Below the pieces are notes generated by a model that was not told the DNA's origin, made no database searches, and was given only the letters and a program-made list of their open reading frames with translations. The translations under genes and the position numbers were made by a program. DNA of 64,000 bases. Source: an uncultured Solobacterium sp. (GTDB lineage: Bacteria; Bacillota_I; Bacilli_A; Erysipelotrichales; Erysipelotrichaceae). This document shows positions 20,812-44,772 of this stretch, piece by piece; the first letter of the stretch is position 1; the number at the start of each line of letters is the position of its first letter. The stretch lies in assembly GCA_900543035.1 (NCBI GenBank), contig UQPV01000007.1, positions 1 to 64,000 of the forward strand. Reading direction: 5' to 3'.

Positions 20812-21690
20812 TTACCAGGCCATGTACTGATTCAGCACCCAGCCAAAATCACCGTTGGTGATCACTGAGTGACAGTATTCACACTCTCCGCTGCTCGTCA
20901 CCTGTGTCGGCGCACCGCAGTTGGGACAGTTGGTGATCTGCGGATCCTTTTCCGCCGCCGTCTTCACCCCGGCGGAACGGATGAATTCCAGATAATAGAA
21001 ACGATGCTGATACTGCGTCTTGCTGCCCTCCAGCACCTCGCCGCTCTCATCATCCGTGGTATAGTCCAGCAGGCTTGCTTCCAGCTTTACGCTGAGCACC
21101 TCCCGCGCGCCATCCGCATGAAAGTCCGCGATGGTGATGCTGCGCACATTCTGCATGTTCAGATGGTTGGTCTTTCCGCTGTCGATATATTCCTGGATCT
21201 GATGGCTGTGCATGTTGAACAGCGAATTGCTCTCAAACGGGCGGACCTTGCGCCATTCTTTCGCCTCCCACGCCTCCTGCAGCGTCAGGTATACCTCGGA
21301 CGCAAAGCTCTTGAAGCCTTCGACCGAAAACTGCGGGTCGATCTCACGCAAGGCGCTGACTGCCGCCGTCTCATTGCAGATCCGATGGCTCACGCCGCCC
21401 TGATAAGGCGTGTCCTGCCTTCTGCTGTTCTGGGTATTCTTGGAAAAATATGCCCATGCCACGATGATCAAGATCATGATGATGGCGCCGAGGATGCTTC
21501 CGCCTCCGCCGCCCATGAAGAAGAACATGCCGCCAAGGCCAGAGCCGCCGGAATATCCTCCGCCGCTGTATCCTCCGCCGCTATAGCCGGATCCTCCTGA
21601 AAACGAATTGCCCACATCCGCATGCACGACGGCCGGGATCAGCAGCAGCGCCGCGATGAGGCACAATCCGGTCAATCTTCGTCTATTCAT
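20812..21690 (-). CDS. Tim44-like domain membrane protein with zinc ribbon
   Basis: 292 residues: a signal peptide (1-24, cut after VHA), a low-complexity Ser/Gly/Tyr stretch of about four GYSGG repeats (residues 31-50), a membrane helix near 64-84, then a Tim44-like domain (about 105-245, with DPQFSVEGFKSFASEVYL and the HSHQIQEYIDSGKTNHLNM segment) and a zinc ribbon CPNCGAP...CEYCHS near 256-277. Such proteins are thought to bind membranes or partner proteins. It is followed after 14 bp by the SPFH gene, and both end in zinc ribbons, which suggests a common complex at the membrane. Confidence 0.82.
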   Translation of the reverse strand: MNRRRLTGLCLIAALLLIPAVVHADVGNSFSGGSGYSGGGYSGGGYSGGSGLGGMFFFMGGGGGSILGAIIMILIIVAWAYFSKNTQNSRRQDTPYQGGVSHRICNETAAVSALREIDPQFSVEGFKSFASEVYLTLQEAWEAKEWRKVRPFESNSLFNMHSHQIQEYIDSGKTNHLNMQNVRSITIADFHADGAREVLSVKLEASLLDYTTDDESGEVLEGSKTQYQHRFYYLEFIRSAGVKTAAEKDPQITNCPNCGAPTQVTSSGECEYCHSVITNGDFGWVLNQYMAW

Positions 21691-21752
21691 TCCCCTGTCC
21701 TCCTGTAATTGATTTCATTGTACGATGAAAGCGGTTTTCAGGCAACCTTTTT

Positions 21753-22862
21753 TCACCGGCCGAGCATCTGCTGCAGCGAATCATCTGTGCAGAATGTGTT
21801 CATGTTGAACAAAAACAGCGTTTCGCTGATCTCCTCGCTTTCGATCAGTTCGTCAAGATCATCATAATAATAACGCGGATCCACGATCACGATCTCCTCA
21901 TAATACGGGATCAGATACGGGATGAATGCATTGGCATAGCTGTCCTTGATGACGAGCAGCCGCTTGCCGTTGGCCAAGGCGCTGTCCACGCGAAGCAGCG
22001 GCGCGTTTCCGCCGAAGAACACCGTATACGGATCTGCGGAAGAAAGCGCATCCTGCGCATACAATGTCGTCGACGTCGTGTCAGCTGAAGGATCCTCCAC
22101 CGTGTACGGCGTCTCCTCTTTCGGCAGCTGCAGCTGCAGATCATCCTGCGTGTGTGTCCAGGCGATCTGCCGTGCCAGCGAGCCATAGAAGCCAGACACC
22201 GCGTCCACGCTCGTGAACGCATCCAGCGGCTGATCCAGGAAGACCTCCGCGGCATATTTCGCCCCCAGCGGGGTCCAATGATGATCGCTGCGGAAATAGA
22301 TGGCTTCCTGTTGATGCGATCGCAGCGCATCCCACACATCGACCGCTCTCACCTGCTCATCCAGCGCATCGATCAGCTGCGCATGCACATCCTGCTGCAG
22401 CGGTTCCTGCGGATTGCGCGAGATGGTGTCCTCCGCAAATGCGATGCGTGTCGGAGCCAGCAGCAAAGAGACATCCATGTCCGCATGCTCCGCGGCAAAC
22501 TCATTCACTGCCTGCACCTGTCCAGCAGCCAGCGTCATCTGCGGGACAAAGGCCTGGATCAGCGAATCATCCTCTGCGATATACACATCTTCCACTCGCC
22601 GATCATGCAGAGCAGCTAAGATATCGCTGCGCATCTGCATCCAGCCTTCCCGACCCGGGAACTGATCGCTGACGAAGGCAGAAGCGGCGTCCTGATAGCT
22701 TCGATCGAGCAAAGACGCCTCCCAGGGCATGACCCACTGCTGCAGCTCGCGATTCTCCGCTGCGGAAAACGTCCGGGAGGGATGGATCAGCGAAACGAGC
22801 ATGCCGGCGCAAAGCAGCACCACGAGCAGCGCAAGATAGGGAAAAGACTCATTCTGTTTCAT
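21753..22862 (-). CDS. DHHW family protein (AlgX/AlgJ-like SGNH fold)
   Basis: 369 residues with an N-terminal signal anchor (about 8-26, LALLVVLLCAGMLVSL). The DHHW signature FRSDHHWTPLGA lies near residue 197-208; the final His belongs to the acetyl-handling site of the AlgX/AlgJ family. A further IKDSYANAFIPYLIPYY segment near 315 carries the conserved DSYAN serine region. The protein would work outside the membrane with the neighbouring MBOAT to move acetyl groups to a cell-surface polymer. The ATG at 22862 follows AGGAGGTGAGATC; a much longer upstream frame lacks a ribosome site. Third to last in the minus-strand run. Confidence 0.88.
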   Translation of the reverse strand: MKQNESFPYLALLVVLLCAGMLVSLIHPSRTFSAAENRELQQWVMPWEASLLDRSYQDAASAFVSDQFPGREGWMQMRSDILAALHDRRVEDVYIAEDDSLIQAFVPQMTLAAGQVQAVNEFAAEHADMDVSLLLAPTRIAFAEDTISRNPQEPLQQDVHAQLIDALDEQVRAVDVWDALRSHQQEAIYFRSDHHWTPLGAKYAAEVFLDQPLDAFTSVDAVSGFYGSLARQIAWTHTQDDLQLQLPKEETPYTVEDPSADTTSTTLYAQDALSSADPYTVFFGGNAPLLRVDSALANGKRLLVIKDSYANAFIPYLIPYYEEIVIVDPRYYYDDLDELIESEEISETLFLFNMNTFCTDDSLQQMLGR

Positions 22863-22873
22863 GATCTCACCTC

Positions 22874-24241
22874 CTAGAACGCACGATATAAGAACGACTG
22901 ATAACTGCTGCCGATGATGAATGCGATGCAGAGGATCATCAGCGCGGTATACACAAACGGCTTGACCCAGACGAACCAGGAAAAACGCGCGCTCAGCGCG
23001 GCATTGGCCCGATGGATCAGCGGCGTGCAACCGATGAGGCAGATCGCGAGCATCGCCCCATAATTGGCGAACACCCAGCCTGCCAGCGAAACATCGATCG
23101 ATGTCAGGTCAAACATGCTGCCCAGCAGGGCAAACGCCGAAGCGAGATCCGGGCTGAAAAAGAACACCCAGCCGATGACGGCCAGCAGATCCGTGATCGC
23201 GATCCTTCCCCAGCGCGGCAGCTTCATCCGCCATTTCGCGCTGAAGCGCTCCACCAGCACGATCACGCCATGATACAGTCCCCAGAACAGAAACGGCAGC
23301 GTGATGCCATGCCACAGACCCGTGAGCAGCCAGACCGCAAGCAGGCTGATGATCATCCGCTTTTTCCCACGGCGGCTGCCGCCCAGCGGGATATACACAT
23401 AATCCCGGAACCAGGCACCCAGCGTGATATGCCAGCGCCGCCAGAATGCCGAGATGGAATCAGACAGATAAGGATAACGGAAATTGACCGGCACATAGAA
23501 GCCGAACATCGACGCTAAGCCAAAAGCCATGAGCGAATAGCCGGCGAAATCAAAATACAGCTGCAGCGAATAAGCGACTGCCTGTCCCCATCCGCTCACA
23601 AACGAAAGCGGAAGCTGTCCCATGCGGGCGAACAGGTCGGCCATCCAGGCCGAAAGGATCACCTTCTGCGCCAGGCCGGCGATGAACAGGCAGACCCCCT
23701 TGTTCATCTGATCCCGCTGCGCATAAGGCCGTTCCAGCTGGATGCGGAAATCCGCATAACGCATGATCGGGCCCATGAGCAGCTTTGGGAAAAACGACAC
23801 ATACAGCAGGAAACGGCACAGGCTGCGCTCCGGCTCGATTTTGCCGCGCCCGACATCCGCAAGATAAGACAGCAGCGAGAACATGAAGAACGAAATGCCT
23901 GAGGGCATCGGCATGACCTCATAAGAGAGAGAAAAGAACGAAGAGAGCTGGTCCAGGATGGTGCCGTAATACTTGAAATACACCAGCAGGAACACATCCG
24001 CGATGACCGCCGGCAAAAGGAGCCAGCGCCACCATTCATCGCTCATCCGGCGGGCGAGCACATAATGCGCAGCCCCCAGCGCGATCAGCAGGAAGACATA
24101 AAGCGGTTCGCCCCACGCATAGAACAGCAAGCTGACCACGAGCAGGAAAGCTTCCCGGGCATGCGTCCTGAAATACAGCAGATACAAGAGCAGCACGACT
24201 GGCAGCCAGCGAAACAAGAAAAGCAAGGTATGAAATTCCAT
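22874..24241 (-). CDS. MBOAT family O-acyltransferase (AlgI-like)
   Basis: 455 residues and about ten membrane helices. It resembles AlgI/DltB-type acyltransferases that pass acetyl groups across the membrane for modification of an exported polymer. Conserved features include FPKLLMGPIMRY near residue 155, NFRYPYLSDSISAFWRRWHITLGAWFRDYVYIPLGG near 255-290, and the active-site His in LLTGLWHGIT near 312. ATG 24241 is chosen: GAGGTG lies 6 bases before it; a GTG three codons upstream overlaps the previous gene. It sits between the DUF4358 and DHHW genes. Confidence 0.93.
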   Translation of the reverse strand: MEFHTLLFLFRWLPVVLLLYLLYFRTHAREAFLLVVSLLFYAWGEPLYVFLLIALGAAHYVLARRMSDEWWRWLLLPAVIADVFLLVYFKYYGTILDQLSSFFSLSYEVMPMPSGISFFMFSLLSYLADVGRGKIEPERSLCRFLLYVSFFPKLLMGPIMRYADFRIQLERPYAQRDQMNKGVCLFIAGLAQKVILSAWMADLFARMGQLPLSFVSGWGQAVAYSLQLYFDFAGYSLMAFGLASMFGFYVPVNFRYPYLSDSISAFWRRWHITLGAWFRDYVYIPLGGSRRGKKRMIISLLAVWLLTGLWHGITLPFLFWGLYHGVIVLVERFSAKWRMKLPRWGRIAITDLLAVIGWVFFFSPDLASAFALLGSMFDLTSIDVSLAGWVFANYGAMLAICLIGCTPLIHRANAALSARFSWFVWVKPFVYTALMILCIAFIIGSSYQSFLYRAF

Positions 24242-24246
24242 CGCGA

Positions 24247-24708
24247 TCACCTCAATGCGGCCCGCACGATCTGCATCAGCTCACTGCTGCCGCTGACGAC
24301 ACATACCGCATAATTGCCGATAACGCTGACCTCGGCCTTTTCCAGCATACGGGTCTGCTGTTCCCCATATCCCTTGAATGCCGTGATCTGCCGCTCGATA
24401 TGTTCCTGCATCTTCTCGAGCAGCTCACCTTTATGCGAAGGAGAATAGAGGATGATGATCTCCTCGACATCCATATACGAAGGCGCGCCGAAATACACTG
24501 CTTCTTCATAGGCATCGCTGCGGATCTGAAGCAGCGTGCACAGCTGTCCTTCATCCTTTTGTTCCATGCCTTCCTCCTCGGCTGCCGGCGCCAGCGCCGC
24601 TTGCAGCTCCTGTGCGCTCACCGCGGCAGTCCCGCGGGCAAACGGGAGAGCCAGCAGCGCCGCCATGACCAGCGCCAGGATGAGATATACGGTCTTTTTC
24701 ATCTTCAT
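24247..24708 (-). CDS. DUF4358 domain lipid-anchored or exported protein
   Basis: 153 residues with an N-terminal hydrophobic signal (about 4-21). The remainder matches DUF4358: YFGAPSYMDVEEIIILYSPS in the middle and GNYAVCVVSGSSELMQIVRAAL at the end, the region that recurs in small exported proteins next to MBOAT/DHHW genes. The biochemical role of DUF4358 is not known; the constant gene context points to O-acetylation of a surface polymer. The start may be ATG 24708 or the ATG two codons later. Its stop overlaps the region before the MBOAT start. Confidence 0.82.
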   Translation of the reverse strand: MKMKKTVYLILALVMAALLALPFARGTAAVSAQELQAALAPAAEEEGMEQKDEGQLCTLLQIRSDAYEEAVYFGAPSYMDVEEIIILYSPSHKGELLEKMQEHIERQITAFKGYGEQQTRMLEKAEVSVIGNYAVCVVSGSSELMQIVRAALR

Positions 24709-24711
24709 CAC

Positions 24712-25527
24712 CTACAATCCTGCGCTGTCTGCCATATGCTGTGCCCACAGCGGATAGTAATCCGGACGCGGATGGATGCCGTCCTGTTCAAATGGCTGTG
24801 CCAGCGAGAGCAGGATGCTGCCATTGTCGATATACATCACGCCCTTCTGCGCGCAAAGCGCTGACAGGCTGGCATTATATGCTGACCAGCTGCCATTGGC
24901 CGGCGTCTGCGCGATCGCCTGCTGAGAGATCGGCAGGACCGAATTGACATAAATGCGCATCTGCGGGAAACGGCTGATCAGCATATCGAGCTTTTCCTGA
25001 TAGACACGCGCGAACTGCTCTGCGTTTCCCTGCCAGTATTCCAGATCGTTCATGCCGAATTCCAGGAAGAGCACGGCAGGAGAACGGCGCGCGATCTCAT
25101 CGATGTATTGATCCAGCTGATCGATGCGCAATCCTCTGACGCCGATGCATTCTGCTTCATTCAGCACGCCATAGGCCAGCAATCCCTCAGCGATCGAGTC
25201 GCCGATGACCAGCGAACCGGAAAACCGCGCAGCGATATCCTGCGAAGCTCCCTCCTGCACGTTTTCCGGCGGGGCCTGTTCGACGGGCGGCTTTGGCTGG
25301 GAAGCCTCTGCTTTTCGCTCCTGCTCCTCTTTGAGCTGCGCGCGGCGCGCATACACATCCTCGCTCGTGTAAGCCGATGCGCGCTGCTCGAGCAAAGCGG
25401 CCGTCTGGCCGTTCACGCTTGTTTCCCTGCGCGCATCTTCATCCTGAAAATGCCAGAGAAAAAGCACACAAGCGGCAGCTATGATCACAGCTGCCGCGGT
25501 CTGTTGTAACCGTTTTTTGTTGTTCAT
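24712..25527 (-). CDS. SGNH/GDSL hydrolase, membrane anchored
   Basis: 271 residues. After a short basic start (MNNKKRLQ) comes a signal anchor (about 10-26) and a charged, proline-containing stalk (about 30-95). The hydrolase domain begins with SLVIGDSIAEG near residue 100 (block I Ser), has FLEFGMNDLEYW near 152 (block III Asn) and ends with DGIHPRPDYY near 253 (Asp-His of block V). Such enzymes add or remove acyl esters of exported glycans. First gene of the O-acetylation cassette and possibly of a six-gene minus-strand operon down to the SPFH gene. Confidence 0.88.
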   Translation of the reverse strand: MNNKKRLQQTAAAVIIAAACVLFLWHFQDEDARRETSVNGQTAALLEQRASAYTSEDVYARRAQLKEEQERKAEASQPKPPVEQAPPENVQEGASQDIAARFSGSLVIGDSIAEGLLAYGVLNEAECIGVRGLRIDQLDQYIDEIARRSPAVLFLEFGMNDLEYWQGNAEQFARVYQEKLDMLISRFPQMRIYVNSVLPISQQAIAQTPANGSWSAYNASLSALCAQKGVMYIDNGSILLSLAQPFEQDGIHPRPDYYPLWAQHMADSAGL

Positions 25528-28212: not shown

Positions 28213-29001
28213 CTATTCTTCCAGCGCCTTTACGCCATACTGGTCGCACAGCTCCACATAACGATCGGATGCCATGAACTTCTCCAGCGCCGCGTTGACC
28301 TTCTCCAGCAGCTCATCATTGCCTTCATAGGTGATGATATAGTTTTTCTCATCCATCAGCGTCTCATCCAGCATCACATAGTCGCCGCTATCCACATAGT
28401 TCTTCGCCACGGCAAGGTCGACCACTGCCGCGTCATACTGTCCGGAAGCCAGGCCGCTGAAGATGACCTTGACATCCGAGATCGACTGCACGTTCGCATC
28501 TTCGATCTCATTGGCCGCCTTTTCACCGGTAGACGCCGTCTGCGCCGCGATCGTCTTACCCTTCAGATCATCCACGCTCGTGATCTCCGTATCTTTCGGC
28601 ATGACTGCTACCTGTGCCGTCGCCGTGTACGGATCAGACCAGGCGACCTTACGTTCCTCATCATACGTGAAGCCGGAGATGGCCATGTCCAGCTGCTTGG
28701 CCGGCAGCTGAGAAAGGATCGCGTTAAATTCCATCTGGCGGAACTGCAGATCATAATTTCCGCCGTCCTCATTCATATACTTTTCCAATTCGACCAGCAT
28801 GTCGGCATCAAAACCGACGATGTTGCCGTCGCTGTCCAGTGACTCATACGGCGGATAATCTGGAGATACGCCGACCAGGATCACCGTCGGATCTTCGCTC
28901 TGCGCATCGTCTCCCTGCGCGCTTCCGCAGCCAGCCAGCGTGCCGAGCATCAGGCATGCACATAAGCCGCTCATCATCATCTTCTTCAGTTTCATCTTCA
29001 T
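28213..29001 (-). CDS. Amino acid ABC transporter substrate-binding lipoprotein
   Basis: 262 residues. A lipoprotein signal (MKMKLKKMM, then LMLGTLAGCG with the lipid Cys near residue 25) is followed by a type-II periplasmic binding fold (SBP family 3). The family signature GFDADMLVELEKYM lies near residue 65-78, and MAISGFTYDEERKVAWSDPYT near 110 contains the ligand-contacting Arg. It captures an amino acid outside the cell for the permease/ATPase behind it. First gene of the T-box-controlled operon; the start follows AAGGGAGGAAATGAAG. Confidence 0.94.
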   Translation of the reverse strand: MKMKLKKMMMSGLCACLMLGTLAGCGSAQGDDAQSEDPTVILVGVSPDYPPYESLDSDGNIVGFDADMLVELEKYMNEDGGNYDLQFRQMEFNAILSQLPAKQLDMAISGFTYDEERKVAWSDPYTATAQVAVMPKDTEITSVDDLKGKTIAAQTASTGEKAANEIEDANVQSISDVKVIFSGLASGQYDAAVVDLAVAKNYVDSGDYVMLDETLMDEKNYIITYEGNDELLEKVNAALEKFMASDRYVELCDQYGVKALEE

Positions 29002-29079
29002 TTCCTCCCTTTTCGCTGTTGCGCTCTCGCAAATTCATGACGGATCGATAATCCGCTGACGGTTCTGACAGAGCTGCAT

Positions 29080-29325
29080 CTACAAAAAAACGCCCTCTGC
29101 CAATGCAAAGGACGAAATCGTTCGCGGTACCACCCTGCTTCCACTGCAAACAAATGCAGCAGCACTCTTCCCTTTTAACGTCAGGCTCACGGATACGGGC
29201 TCGGCTTCGCTTCGCCCGATCGACTCCCAGACACGTTCACCCTTACTCGCCCATCCGCTCGCACCATCCGCGGACTCTCTGAAGCAGCTTTTTCAGGATT
29301 ACTCCTTCTGTTCACCGTCTTTATA
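29080..29325 (-). ncRNA. T-box leader upstream of the amino-acid transporter operon
   Basis: On the minus strand stem I contains AGGAGTA (5' side) and AGGGT-GAAC-GTG (3' side, near 29238-29249), the AGAGAG-type bulge and GGTGCGAGC. The antiterminator carries GGGTGGTACCGCG (29123-29135) and the terminator is CGTCCTTTGC-ATTG-GCAGAGGGCG followed by seven Ts. Uncharged tRNA would favour read-through. By analogy to the metG leader in this window (AGTA...GAAC then ATG), the specifier would be GTG (valine); one base earlier CGT (arginine) is also possible and is followed by a purine as is usual. The family of transporter suits arginine better. The identity is unsettled. Confidence 0.9.
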
Positions 29326-29330
29326 CGACT

Positions 29331-29358
29331 ATTATACACAACTCTGCGATAATTGCAA
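29331..29358 (-). promoter_or_regulatory. Promoter of the T-box operon
   Basis: On the minus strand TTGCAA, 16 bases, TATAAT, directly upstream of the T-box stem I. Confidence 0.8.
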
Positions 29359-29406
29359 TACCATTCGCCCAAAAGTACGCACGATTTTCATTCTATTTTC
29401 TGAAAA

Positions 29407-30198
29407 TTATTTCAAAGCCTCCATGATCTTCTGATCGATCTTCTCTGCATATTCTTGCGCGAGCTGATGCTCTCCTTTGCTCCTCAAGATCTGCATCGTC
29501 AGCTGATGATTGCGTACATCATGCGATACCAGCCGCAGCCGCTCATACTCATCGGCAAGCGTTTTCCGCCGCCCTTCGCCATGCCCGCGCTGCATCTTCC
29601 CGCCAAAACGATACAGCGCATACCCATTGAATGCCGCCACCACGAAATAGATCAGCGAGAACAGCATATACCACAGCACCTCGATCTTTCCCGGATAGAC
29701 AAAAGCAGTCAATAACATTGCATTGCTCAGCGGCAGGAGCACCGGCAGAAGGAAGATCCCAGATTCGCGTCTGCGCTTGACGAAACGCAGACAGATCGGA
29801 CAGGCAATCACATAGACGATGATTTTGATCAGCGTGCCAAACACAAGTCCAGATACGAACATCAGGTCGGGAACAGCTAAGATCAAAAGCACCGAAATAA
29901 GAAGCAAAATCCCATATTGGATCATCACATATAACAAGACCCTGCCTCTGGGGACATTATACAGCCATGGGATCCAAAATAGAATAAAAGCAGAAGTTAA
30001 TATAAAAGTGATCAGATTGTTTGCGGCAGTGGGCGTCAAGAAAAATACATCTATCACCAGATTGAGCGCAATGAAGCTCAGCACGCATGCCGCCAGCTTT
30101 TTCCCCTGCCGACCATGCTCTACGCAGAGAATGTGGTAATAGATCCCGCTGAATACCGACAAGATCGTGTCGGCCGCGATCGTCTCAATCATCATCAT
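29407..30198 (-). CDS. AgrC-like sensor with phospho-acceptor helix but no ATPase domain
   Basis: 263 residues. Six hydrophobic helices fill about residues 8-205, like the sensor part of AgrC/HPK10 kinases. They are followed by a linker and RLRLVSHDVRNHQLTMQ near residue 222-238, the HDxxNH phospho-acceptor motif of this group, and the rest of its two-helix unit (SKGEHQLAQEYAEKI). The protein stops about eight residues later, so the GHKL ATPase domain that should follow is absent. The downstream DNA does not encode it. The upstream gene, overlapping by 14 bp, encodes an ATPase domain without this acceptor motif. Together they make one complete kinase. No response regulator lies nearby. Confidence 0.8.
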   Translation of the reverse strand: MMMIETIAADTILSVFSGIYYHILCVEHGRQGKKLAACVLSFIALNLVIDVFFLTPTAANNLITFILTSAFILFWIPWLYNVPRGRVLLYVMIQYGILLLISVLLILAVPDLMFVSGLVFGTLIKIIVYVIACPICLRFVKRRRESGIFLLPVLLPLSNAMLLTAFVYPGKIEVLWYMLFSLIYFVVAAFNGYALYRFGGKMQRGHGEGRRKTLADEYERLRLVSHDVRNHQLTMQILRSKGEHQLAQEYAEKIDQKIMEALK

Positions 30199-30931
30199 GC
30201 TCTCCTTCCAGCAGCAGGGTCACTTGCACGATATAGCGCCCATCCTGCACTTCCCGCCTCACCCAGCCATCATAGCGTTCCGCGATCTCCTGTACGATGA
30301 GGCTGCCAAAGCCATGACGCCAGTCTCGCTCACCGTGCTGCGCACGAAAATGATTGGCAATGGACAGCGAAAGCATATTGCCGCTTTGATGGATCTGCAT
30401 GCTGATGACTTTGGTTTCGGCATCTGCCGCAGCACGCAGAGCATTGTCCAGCAAGTTGGAAAACAAGGAGATGAGATCATCACAGGAGATGCGCGTGCCT
30501 TGTCTCAGTCCGCCGCTGATCTCCAGCTTCACCCCTTTTTCTTCGGCCTGCGCCTGTTTGAGGATGAGCAGTGCATTCAGATAAGGGTCCGCGCAATAGG
30601 TCTGATGGATATGGACATATGCCGGCAGTGTCTCCTTGTCTTTCTGCGCACGCACTTGCCGCAGATACTGACGCTCATGTTCGATCTCTGCTTCCAGTTC
30701 CGCAATGATCCGCACATCTTCCTTTGGCGACCGGCTCAGCCGTCTCGCCCACAGCAAGATGACAGTCAGGATGCTTGCCGTAAGCAGATAATAAAGAAGC
30801 AGCAGCACGCCTGCCTCAGCCGGATCGAGCATGCCCAATGTGCCGCCGTCCCACATCCAGTGGGCAAACAATACATATGCGGCAACACTGAGCAGCAGGT
30901 AGATAAAGACGATCATCCGCCGATGCTTCAT
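30185..30931 (-). CDS. GHKL ATPase-domain membrane protein lacking an acceptor histidine motif
   Basis: 248 residues. Two N-terminal membrane helices (about 7-25 and 42-64), a coiled-coil-like EAEIEHERQYLRQVRAQKD stretch (about 80-98), then a GHKL domain of the AgrC type: the region before it (YLNALLILKQAQAEEKGVKLEI), the N-box LFSNLLDNALRAA near 155-167, and the G-box HGFGSLIVQEIAERYDGW near 211-228. The HDxxNH motif expected before this domain is missing. ATG 30931 follows GCGAGGGGG. It is translated ahead of the overlapping acceptor-helix gene; the order is opposite to that in a single-chain kinase, so a frameshift does not explain the split. Confidence 0.8.
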   Translation of the reverse strand: MKHRRMIVFIYLLLSVAAYVLFAHWMWDGGTLGMLDPAEAGVLLLLYYLLTASILTVILLWARRLSRSPKEDVRIIAELEAEIEHERQYLRQVRAQKDKETLPAYVHIHQTYCADPYLNALLILKQAQAEEKGVKLEISGGLRQGTRISCDDLISLFSNLLDNALRAAADAETKVISMQIHQSGNMLSLSIANHFRAQHGERDWRHGFGSLIVQEIAERYDGWVRREVQDGRYIVQVTLLLEGEHDDD

Positions 30932-30945
30932 GTCCATCCCCCTCG

Positions 30946-30970
30946 CAAAAAAGGCTGTGCGCACACAGCC
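30946..30970 (-). terminator. Terminator of sufCB
   Basis: On the minus strand GGCTGTG-TGCG-CACAGCC followed by six Ts, right after the sufB-like gene and before the kinase pair. Confidence 0.85.
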
Positions 30971-30972
30971 CG

Positions 30973-31902
30973 TTATTTCAAGAATCCGTCTACGATGACT
31001 TGCTCCGCTTCTTCCTCGCTCAATCCGAATGTCTGCAGCTTGATCAGCTGATCGCTGTTGATCTTGCCGATGGCCGCCTCATGGATGACCTGCGCATCCA
31101 CATGATTCGCCGCGATCTCAGGGATCGAGGAGATCTTCGCATTGCCCATCAGGATCGAATCGCACTGCACATGCGCACGGCATTTGCTGTTGCCGCGGGC
31201 GATCGGATGGAACACCTGCACGGAGTCATCCTTGCCGACAGAACGCGATACGATCTGCAGCACGCTGTCTTCCCCATCCAGATCGACGCTCACATCAGAG
31301 AGCGCATGCTGTCTGCCATGCGTCATCAGCTTCTCGTTGATCACCAGCTTGGCCTTCGGCCCCAGCTTGGCATATGTCTTGCGCTCAGTGGAGTCCACGC
31401 CGCGGATCTGGCTCATGTCCATCTGGGCAAAGCTTCCCTCTTCCATATAGATATTGGTCGTCGGATTGAGGATACGCTCCCCTTCGCCATTGCCCTCGCC
31501 ATAGTGCTTTTCGGTATAGACCACGCGGGCATTGCGACCGATATGGAACGTGTGGATGCCATCGTGCTGCGAGGTGTCGCAGCCGTCATTGTGGATGCCG
31601 CAGCCGGCGATGATCTCCACATCTGCGCCTTCCCCGATATAAAAATCATTATAGACCAGATCGTGAATGCCGCTGTCCGTCAGGATGACCGGGATATGCA
31701 CCTGTTCCCCGATCGTTCCCGGCGCGACGATGATGTCGATACCGGGCTTGTCGGCCTTCTGGCGGATCTGGATATTCGGGGTGGAATGACGTTCCACGCC
31801 CATGCCGTTGGCCCGCAGGTTGAAGGCAGATCCCGGCATGAAGCCGCTGATGCCCGCAATTTCCTGCAGCAGTCCTTTTTCCGTCTGATTCAGCATGTTC
31901 AT
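30973..31902 (-). CDS. SufB/SufD family Fe-S assembly scaffold (minimal SufBC type)
   Basis: 309 residues, close to the short SufB-like form found with SufC alone in anaerobes. The SufBD beta-helix core is seen: GDxxxH-like elements NDGCDTSQHDGIHTFHIG (about 106-123), RNARVVYTEKHYGEG (about 124-138), and the C-terminal NHVDAQVIHEAAIGKINSDQL near 268-288, which also holds the usual HEA(A/T) motif. The N-terminal extension of classical SufB is lacking. It overlaps sufC by ATGA and ends in a terminator. No SufS, SufU or SufE gene is near, so sulfur delivery must come from elsewhere. Confidence 0.88.
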   Translation of the reverse strand: MNMLNQTEKGLLQEIAGISGFMPGSAFNLRANGMGVERHSTPNIQIRQKADKPGIDIIVAPGTIGEQVHIPVILTDSGIHDLVYNDFYIGEGADVEIIAGCGIHNDGCDTSQHDGIHTFHIGRNARVVYTEKHYGEGNGEGERILNPTTNIYMEEGSFAQMDMSQIRGVDSTERKTYAKLGPKAKLVINEKLMTHGRQHALSDVSVDLDGEDSVLQIVSRSVGKDDSVQVFHPIARGNSKCRAHVQCDSILMGNAKISSIPEIAANHVDAQVIHEAAIGKINSDQLIKLQTFGLSEEEAEQVIVDGFLK

Positions 31903-44545: not shown

Positions 44546-44772
44546 GTTTGCAATGGCAGAGAAGGAAAGAGTACCGGTGCGGAATGCATAGAGAGCAGAT
44601 GGTTGGTGGAAATCTGACAGGAAGCATCCGGGAACATGGCTCCGGAGCCGCTTTTCCGAATCATGAGGAAAGGCCGCGGAAACGGCGTTAACGTTCAGAG
44701 GTGCATGACATGCATGAAAAAAGGTGGTACCGCGAAGCTTTCGCCCTTTGGCGCAAGCTTTTTTTCTTTTTC
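44546..44772 (+). ncRNA. T-box leader of metG, methionine specifier
   Basis: Stem I carries AGAGAAGGAAAGAGTA on the 5' side, and GAAC-ATG-G on the 3' side with the specifier ATG at 44636-44638; GGTTGGTGGAAATC forms the apical region with AGAGAG before it. The antiterminator contains AAGGTGGTACCGCG (44721-44734), and the terminator is AAGCTTTCGCC-CTTT-GGCGCAAGCTT followed by a T run. Uncharged tRNA-Met should permit read-through into metG. Confidence 0.94.

Follow-up and report, generated by a model that had tools for sequence, protein, structure and literature searches.

A candidate split AgrC-like sensor kinase with its ATPase and acceptor histidine on two membrane proteins, and its relatives in Erysipelotrichales

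Introduction

Sensor kinases of bacteria are commonly depicted as single chains that act as homodimers. AgrC of Staphylococcus aureus is of this kind: a single chain with a six-helix transmembrane (TM) sensor, homodimeric, with AgrB/AgrD and AgrA encoded in the same locus. The DNA analyzed here, referred to as the window, is a 64,000-nucleotide stretch of contig UQPV01000007.1 from an uncultured Solobacterium sp. Two overlapping genes in it, ORF1 and ORF2, appear to divide such a kinase between two membrane proteins. A preliminary description of the sequence regarded them as complementary partners and knew of no described system with this layout. The locus raises the question of whether the two proteins are working halves of one sensor kinase or the remains of a broken one, and whether the arrangement stands alone.

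Anatomy of the gene pair

Both open reading frames are present on the minus strand exactly where the preliminary description had placed them (Table 1). ORF1 has two predicted TM helices and a GHKL domain (PF14501, E=6.4e-13) with the N-box FSNLLDNA and the G-box HGFGSLIV. Its AlphaFold model (pLDDT 72.9, pTM 0.49) has the S. aureus AgrC kinase module 6e95/6e52 as the closest solved structure (Foldseek E=2e-10) and matches the AgrC ATPase domain 4bxi with a TMt of 0.72. The HATPase_c_5 domain and AgrC-like kinase fold that characterize AgrC/HPK10-type kinases are therefore found in ORF1; sensor, H-box and ATPase are not united on one chain in the window pair. With AgrC (6e95, 6e52, 4bxi) the pair shares the fold of the ATPase/kinase module and the type of H-box.

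ORF2 has about six TM helices (six in a weak model, seven hydrophobic stretches by a simple count). SHDVRNHQ occupies residues 225-232 and is followed by 31 residues to the C-terminus. Neither Pfam nor NCBIfam gave a match to ORF2, and for this reason domain annotation overlooks the receptors. His226 is kept in ten of the 11 aligned ORF2 sequences and the full HDVRNH in nine; the variants without it, P0015 (SYDVRNHQ, two members) and P0016 (SHDVRDHQ, one member), are perhaps sequence errors. The structure model of ORF2 is poor overall (pLDDT 47.1) and unsuited to a fold search, and comparison of the receptor profile with solved structures returned weak TM matches only (best E=0.0074).

The two proteins were aligned by hhalign to a profile of 20 one-chain AgrC-like kinases (431 positions). 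ORF2 was placed on positions 1-283 with a probability of 97.1% (98.6% with a wider receptor alignment) and ORF1 on positions 149-430 with a probability of 100%. ORF2 therefore corresponds to a kinase minus its ATPase end, and ORF1 to a kinase minus its first TM helices. The acceptor motif, the lack of Pfam and NCBIfam matches and the restriction of the alignment to the N-terminal 283 positions all identify ORF2 as an acceptor domain without an ATPase domain. On the DNA the domain order is reversed relative to a one-chain kinase. This order, from which the preliminary description had already argued that a frameshift cannot explain the pair, and the recurrence of both halves (see below) led us to reject a single kinase split by frameshift.

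Table 1. Features of the gene pair and its surroundings (window coordinates)
Feature	Position	Strand	Details
ORF1	30185..30931	-	putative ATPase (CA) subunit, 248 aa; two TM helices, helix and GHKL domain; acceptor His in register absent
ORF2	29407..30198	-	putative receptor with acceptor domain, 263 aa; about six TM helices, H-box and second helix; no ATPase domain
ORF1/ORF2 overlap	30185..30198	-	14 bp if translation of ORF2 begins at the most upstream in-frame ATG (30198)
Two predicted TM helices of ORF1	30734..30928	-	model residues 2-27 and 37-66; aligned by hhalign with the final two TM segments of one-chain kinases
GHKL/HATPase_c_5 domain of ORF1	30215..30481	-	residues 151-239; Pfam; Foldseek to AgrC 6e95/4bxi
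Swapped sensor blocks of ORF2	29818..30063	-	residues 46-127; blocks 46-72 and 87-127 replaced wholesale in other alleles, flanks near identical
DHp-like helical hairpin of ORF2	29413..29568	-	residues 211-262; predicted; mean pLDDT 64-72 over 231-260 only
Acceptor motif HDVRNH of ORF2	29506..29523	-	His226 at 29521-29523
Terminator-like hairpin	30952..30971	-	directly 3' of sufD; stops 20 bp short of the start codon of ORF1

No His occurs 82-89 residues before the ORF1 N-box, where 23 of 27 controls have one; these controls are long kinases from 26 loci, each a single chain or nearly so. Among the other four, the pattern script gave earlier matches for two (112 and 117 residues) and no match for two (L169 and L187). 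The H-box His of database one-chain proteins with a pattern match (n=70) lies at 82-89 in 65 and at 75-77 in three. In a profile alignment to 6e52, the ATPase family likewise has no His opposite RHDYVN. ORF1 is thus an ATPase domain without an acceptor His apart from the out-of-register H85, which stands in EIEHERQYL, 74 residues before the N-box. The preliminary reading of ORF1 as a two-helix membrane protein with an intact GHKL ATPase and no HDxxNH motif, and of ORF2 as a six-helix protein stopping soon after SHDVRNHQ, agrees with all these data.

Because a Glu follows H85, self-phosphorylation of ORF1 was retained as an alternative. ORF1 would then be a self-sufficient two-TM kinase using H85, and ORF2 only a sensory activator with a relic H-box. 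The HE context is kept in the database homologs P0001 and P0002, and in one relative (L147, genome G274) a complete two-TM kinase with RFRHDISKH lies beside six-TM proteins with decayed kinase ends. However, the spacing of H85 from the N-box departs from that in the controls and database proteins, the ORF1 model forms a single helix around H85 followed by a low-confidence stretch, with no hairpin, and the complete, conserved H-box is that of ORF2. We therefore regard this alternative as unlikely.

The overlap of the two genes is 8-14 bp depending on the ORF2 start used, as in-frame ATGs are present at 30198, 30195 and 30192; the homolog P0009 starts at the second ATG and P0012 at the third. 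ORF1 lies 41 bp past the sufD stop codon. Genes resembling suf genes lie 5' of the pair; on the 3' side a T-box leader (29105-29324) is followed by genes resembling an amino-acid ABC transporter (both sets of genes named by eye). The terminator-like hairpin abuts the ORF1 ribosome site, and a promoter serving the pair would hardly fit in unless it lay within sufD. The position of the hairpin so close to the ORF1 start implies either transcription continuing from suf or a promoter located inside sufD; a simple scan of 29000-31400 gave no promoter-like site. Besides the T-box leader mentioned, which is on the minus strand, the window has a second one at 44550-44751 (plus strand). Elsewhere in the window (20812-25527, minus strand) a cluster encoding MBOAT, DHHW/AlgX-like, GDSL and DUF4358 proteins, adjoined by a gene for a Tim44-domain protein, resembles a surface-polymer acetylation system.

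A search of all window ORFs of at least 50 aa with a receiver+LytTR profile, down to E=10, yielded no regulator, and a Pfam scan of 10 further neighbouring proteins was also negative. This accords with the preliminary statement that no response regulator lies beside the pair. Nor does the locus have the composition of agr, in which AgrB/AgrD and AgrA are encoded with the kinase, as the profile search gave no LytTR regulator in the window.

Recurrence and alleles of the pair

Both halves were found in protein databases. The ORF1 homologs are P0001 (99% identity, cluster of 381 sequences) and P0002 (83%, 52 sequences). Those of ORF2, P0009-P0019, have 74-99% identity and include P0009 (99%, 248 sequences), P0018 (81%, 171), P0010 (90%, 30) and P0014 (85%, 37). 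In a second lineage, at 83-85% identity to the window, both halves remain separate, open frames. This recurrence as two proteins rules out the assembly error at 30185-30198 that the preliminary description had named as a possible refutation. More generally, an assembly or annotation artefact would have to be shared by P0001 and P0009, which derive from different data and whose ends are identical or almost so; nothing spoke for such an artefact, and we consider it refuted for practical purposes. The preliminary description had also singled out the two domain losses and the 14-bp overlap for comparison across genomes. Both losses recur in the second lineage; as to the overlap, an 8-bp core can be kept there, judging from the protein ends (ORF1 ...DD-stop, ORF2 MIET...). 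P0006, from one other contig, reaches from SufD, with a shift of frame, into the beginning of ORF1 and shows the same neighbourhood.

A first scan of genome contigs with ORF2 as query gave no match. A second scan with SufD as query provided the taxonomic home of the window and relatives with an empty site. SufD identity to the window is 87% in an uncultured Erysipelotrichaceae bacterium (L001), 86% in Merdibacter massiliensis (L002) and 85% in Candidatus Merdibacter merdigallinarum (L003), which places the window near Merdibacter (Erysipelotrichaceae). The pair is absent 3' of sufD in these three near relatives; tblastn of their sequences (11.8, 20.9 and 14.6 kb) returned nothing convincing (best E=0.72), and the ORF2 profile A1, used without a positive control, matched none of five genomes, those of L001-L004 and L033.

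The empty sites, and the interrupted genes of one family member (L124, see below), would be expected if the pair were a decaying kinase, left as pseudogenes after a rearrangement. Against this, the frames are open and the N-, G- and H-boxes intact both in large clusters and in the second lineage, and the domain order excludes a simple frameshift. Decay thus appears very improbable.

The ORF2 alleles differ by blocks within the sensor part (Table 1). P0018 is identical to the window protein over residues 1-45 (44/44), agrees in 7/27 positions over residues 46-72, 12/14 in the next stretch and 16/41 over residues 87-127, and then in 71/73 and 61/63; P0010 has the second foreign block only. P0019, in which one swapped-block allele is fused to a second-lineage tail, is either a recombinant or an assembly chimaera. 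AgrC has allelic groups. The confinement of block replacement in ORF2 to the sensor recalls these groups and by analogy suggests a variable ligand; to name a peptide as that ligand is a guess.

A family of probable split kinases in Erysipelotrichales

We searched samples of 244 family genomes (ORF1 as query), 315 order genomes (alignment A3), and 395 class and 392 phylum genomes (alignment A5). Twenty-four comparable systems were found in 20 genomes, all of them in the order-wide sample, each with a short ATPase protein having mostly two TM helices. The systems were picked from short frames in the family and order scans and their neighbourhoods were inspected; the figure of 20 in 315 genomes is a minimum and should not be taken as an unbiased rate, weaker short frames (e.g. 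in G262, G286, G288 and G201) being outside the count. The class- and phylum-wide samples contained no further short frame above 160 bits. All nine places that exceeded 200 bits had been found before as short frames, and eight of these sequences are part of alignment A5 itself; long kinases reached 154 bits at most. At such similarity the family is therefore seen only in this order.

A receptor ending soon after its HD box is adjacent to the ATPase gene in 23 of the 24 systems by inspection and in 21 by a fixed rule, which missed the receptors recognized by eye in L139 and L141; the sole system without one is L115 (G113). A regulator is encoded no more than five ORFs away in 22 of 24 systems (profile search), sometimes on the opposite strand, and a Pfam scan of nine regulators identified a receiver and a LytTR domain in every one. 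The remaining two systems are L137b, which has a transposase neighbour, and L138, at a contig end. Compared with these 22 systems, the absence of a regulator beside the window pair counts against our best explanation. Gene orders vary (regulator-ATPase-receptors, regulator-receptor-ATPase, receptor-ATPase-regulator); the ATPase-then-receptor order of the window is also seen, for example, in L137b. AgrB (PF04647) was found in 10 of the 20 draft genomes with split systems and not in the other 10; the agrB genes found are on contigs other than those of the split systems or, in G113, 1.2 Mb off.

For control, 21 kinases at 20 loci were hand-picked from the higher-scoring long frames of the class-wide scan. 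An H-box was present in 20 of them and an H-only receptor neighbour in none. A further 18 long kinases (L127, L153-L167), fetched for other reasons, were kept apart; the fixed rule found no H-box in ten, eight of which are in or like the mirror-image systems described below and two in L157. An in-register HD/HE is present in 2/23 split ATPase proteins including that of the window (HDMEH in L115, HEIKN in L142) versus 23/27 one-chain controls. This test left out L124, with its interrupted ATPase gene, and L143, cut by a contig end; in L141 and L146 an HD/HE stands at 81 residues, just outside the 82-89 range. L115, receptorless yet with an H-box, is a single case that fits complementarity, and L142, with an H-box on both chains, counts against a clean split.

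Several loci were left out of the 24: L118 (G134), whose kinase is interrupted between the TM part and the H-box and ATPase part; L120 and L125-L130, soluble GHKL proteins of 215-234 aa with an H-box; L121, L132, L150 and L162, which are short, yet have an H-box; the complete two-TM kinase of L147; and L122 (G028) and L165 (G257), ATPase pieces without TM helices, the latter in an interrupted frame. The soluble kinases of L120 and L125-L128 (217-226 aa, WRHDYRN or YRHDFRN) have as neighbours a LytTR-like regulator and some larger membrane proteins (about 600 aa) resembling ABC exporters.

In a tree of ATPase domains built by a quick method, the split label needs seven changes, and the starred branches force only one. 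The tree is compatible with one origin of split kinases or several, and neither shows nor excludes either. Window ORF1 joins other split groups weakly (SH-aLRT 84, long branches flagged), and the group holding it together with split proteins also includes two one-chain kinases. Five short TM and GHKL proteins (P0084, P0124, P0077, P0079 and P0082), in which the pattern found no H-box, lie apart from the window group in the tree.

Several receptors beside one ATPase protein

In ten of the 24 systems a single ATPase protein is accompanied by two, three or four receptors. Two are present in L134, L135 and L148, and in L113 together with a cut third; three in L117, L119, L133 and L140; and four in L145 and in L124, where the ATPase and regulator genes are interrupted. 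We compared the 38-residue acceptor tails with the sensor parts, after setting aside L119 and L138, which nearly duplicate L117 and L137, respectively, and the L113 receptor cut by the contig end. Within arrays the median identity is 50% for tails and 30% for sensor parts, and tails are more alike than sensors in 23/25 pairs. Tails from different arrays have 21% identity (641 pairs), and 19 of the 25 receptors have their closest tail within their own array. Duplication may account for part of this likeness. Faster change of the sensor is what would be expected if receptors for different signals shared one kinase.

Twenty-six of 37 receptors stop 9-26 residues after the His and are therefore too short for a full hairpin of their own. 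The other 11, with 32-46 residues after the His, may include a second helix like that of window ORF2 (37 residues). The systems of L117, L119, L140 and L145 adjoin genes for large proteins with one predicted TM stretch and similar C-termini (VNGKE... or GKKYYGSYS...); these are perhaps secreted and possible targets of the regulators.

Proposed mechanism and known systems

The hhalign placement, the Foldseek match of ORF1, the recurrence in the second lineage and the 24 comparable systems support the reading of the two proteins as complementary halves, as was first proposed. We think it probable that the pair is an obligate two-protein sensor kinase in which the ATPase of ORF1 phosphorylates the His of ORF2 and the phosphate passes to a regulator encoded elsewhere. 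ORF2 would be the receptor: an extracellular signal, probably a peptide, would bind to its TM domain, and the acceptor His226 would lie on the helical hairpin at its C-terminus. ORF1 would be the ATPase subunit, anchored by two TM helices matching the last two of a one-chain kinase; it would keep the ATP-binding domain, whereas its bundle is reduced and lacks a His in register. The two proteins would pair via coiled coils, His226 would be phosphorylated in trans from ATP on ORF1, and the phosphate would go on to a LytTR-type regulator.

The regulator missing from the neighbourhood could also be explained if ORF2 were a RetS-like or phosphatase-like modulator of a different, complete kinase, and ORF1 likewise. 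Heterodimeric modulation of kinases is known (GacS/RetS, cited in PMC12675982), and other partners are possible elsewhere in the genome of the window species. However, overlapping genes, complementary domain loss and pairing in 23/24 relatives favour mutual partners, which makes modulation of other kinases improbable.

The view that no described system has this layout needs correction on two points. The window pair is one case of a family, in which several receptors often adjoin one ATPase protein, and split kinases have been described elsewhere. According to a 2025 report (PMC12675982), FasB and FasC of Streptococcus pyogenes, two AgrC-like membrane kinases encoded with the single regulator FasA in one operon, have nearly the same logic. 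FasB and FasC form a heterodimer by two-hybrid analysis; the TM part of FasB and the kinase domain of FasC are dispensable when overexpressed from plasmids; H246 of FasC is required; and the FasB ATPase was proposed to phosphorylate FasC (PMC12675982). Judged from that description, the likeness to the window pair lies in the anatomy of an ATPase chain and a sensor/acceptor chain, and FasB/FasC is an experimental precedent for the scheme proposed here. As described there, each Fas chain is full length (six TM, DHp and ATPase), with one receptor and an adjacent regulator. In the window pair, by comparison, the dispensable parts are truly missing, the ATPase chain has two TM helices and no regulator is adjacent, and the relatives have up to four receptors per ATPase, not one.

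Two further split kinases belong to other classes. In CheA3/CheA4 of Rhodobacter sphaeroides the ATPase and the acceptor His are on separate proteins that must combine, as is proposed here; these are of the CheA class, with a P1 acceptor domain and an acceptor chain without a membrane receptor (PMC3591291). Hik36/Hik43 of Synechocystis was termed a split histidine kinase and its chains interact by two-hybrid analysis, but the acceptor is an HPt domain and the genes are distant (PMC7656254). The available part of that report gives Hik43 CheW-interaction and receiver domains and describes no six-TM receptor (PMC7656254). The proposed mechanism therefore has precedents. A SMART count quoted in PMC3591291 lists 1556 of 42417 HisKA proteins without HATPase; these have the acceptor domain alone, like ORF2, although in the HisKA and not the LytTR/AgrC class. 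In the open-access literature, we found FasBC alone among split, truncated or heterodimeric kinases of the AgrC/LytTR class, Erysipelotrichales included, and no account of receptor arrays with a common AgrC-class ATPase.

From the sequences, the larger find seems to be the family with several receptors per ATPase, and its surprising part the arrays of many receptors with one ATPase. We give an even chance to a general scheme for Erysipelotrichales in which a split AgrC kinase consists of a universal ATPase subunit and exchangeable receptor-acceptors, up to four receptors in tandem acting with one LytTR regulator. Receptors would be added or swapped by duplication and block recombination while the kinase is not rebuilt, and the window pair would be a reduced version of the scheme, its sensor exchangeable and its regulator encoded at a distance. 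This scheme may be likened to many chemoreceptors sharing one CheA. A group of gut bacteria would seemingly have separated receptor from ATPase, in several cases combining many receptors with one ATPase. If the model is correct, these systems would offer a natural test bed for how receptors control a common kinase core and how new receptors evolve, and could be used for plug-in receptors in engineered signalling.

Mirror-image and other relatives

Splits of the opposite kind were observed in G081 (L153, 5273-8526), G039 (L154, 4328-7534), G106 (L155, 4082-7565) and G127 (L156, 6943-10360). In these four, a small TM protein has FYHDLSN and no recognizable ATPase N-box; the ATPase lies on two larger TM proteins (411-426 aa) that have no in-register HD/HE. 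The acceptor stretch of the window, SHDVRNHQLTMQILRSKG, resembles those of the mirror-image systems (YHDLSNHLMTLQILKEQG in L153), and the best ORF1 match among the 244 family genomes is in G081. Both types of split would follow if an ancestral pair of complete kinases had undergone complementary decay in one direction or the other; FasBC, with both chains full length and each having a dispensable part, would by analogy resemble the preceding stage.

Two other arrangements were noted. In L147 (2393-5970) the complete two-TM kinase has 249 aa including its ATPase, and it is followed by two TM proteins (406-407 aa) whose kinase ends are decayed, and by the beginning of a third protein. In L158 (6202-7958, G148) a 129-aa two-TM protein with IHHDYNN adjoins a 427-aa ATPase protein without an in-register H-box.
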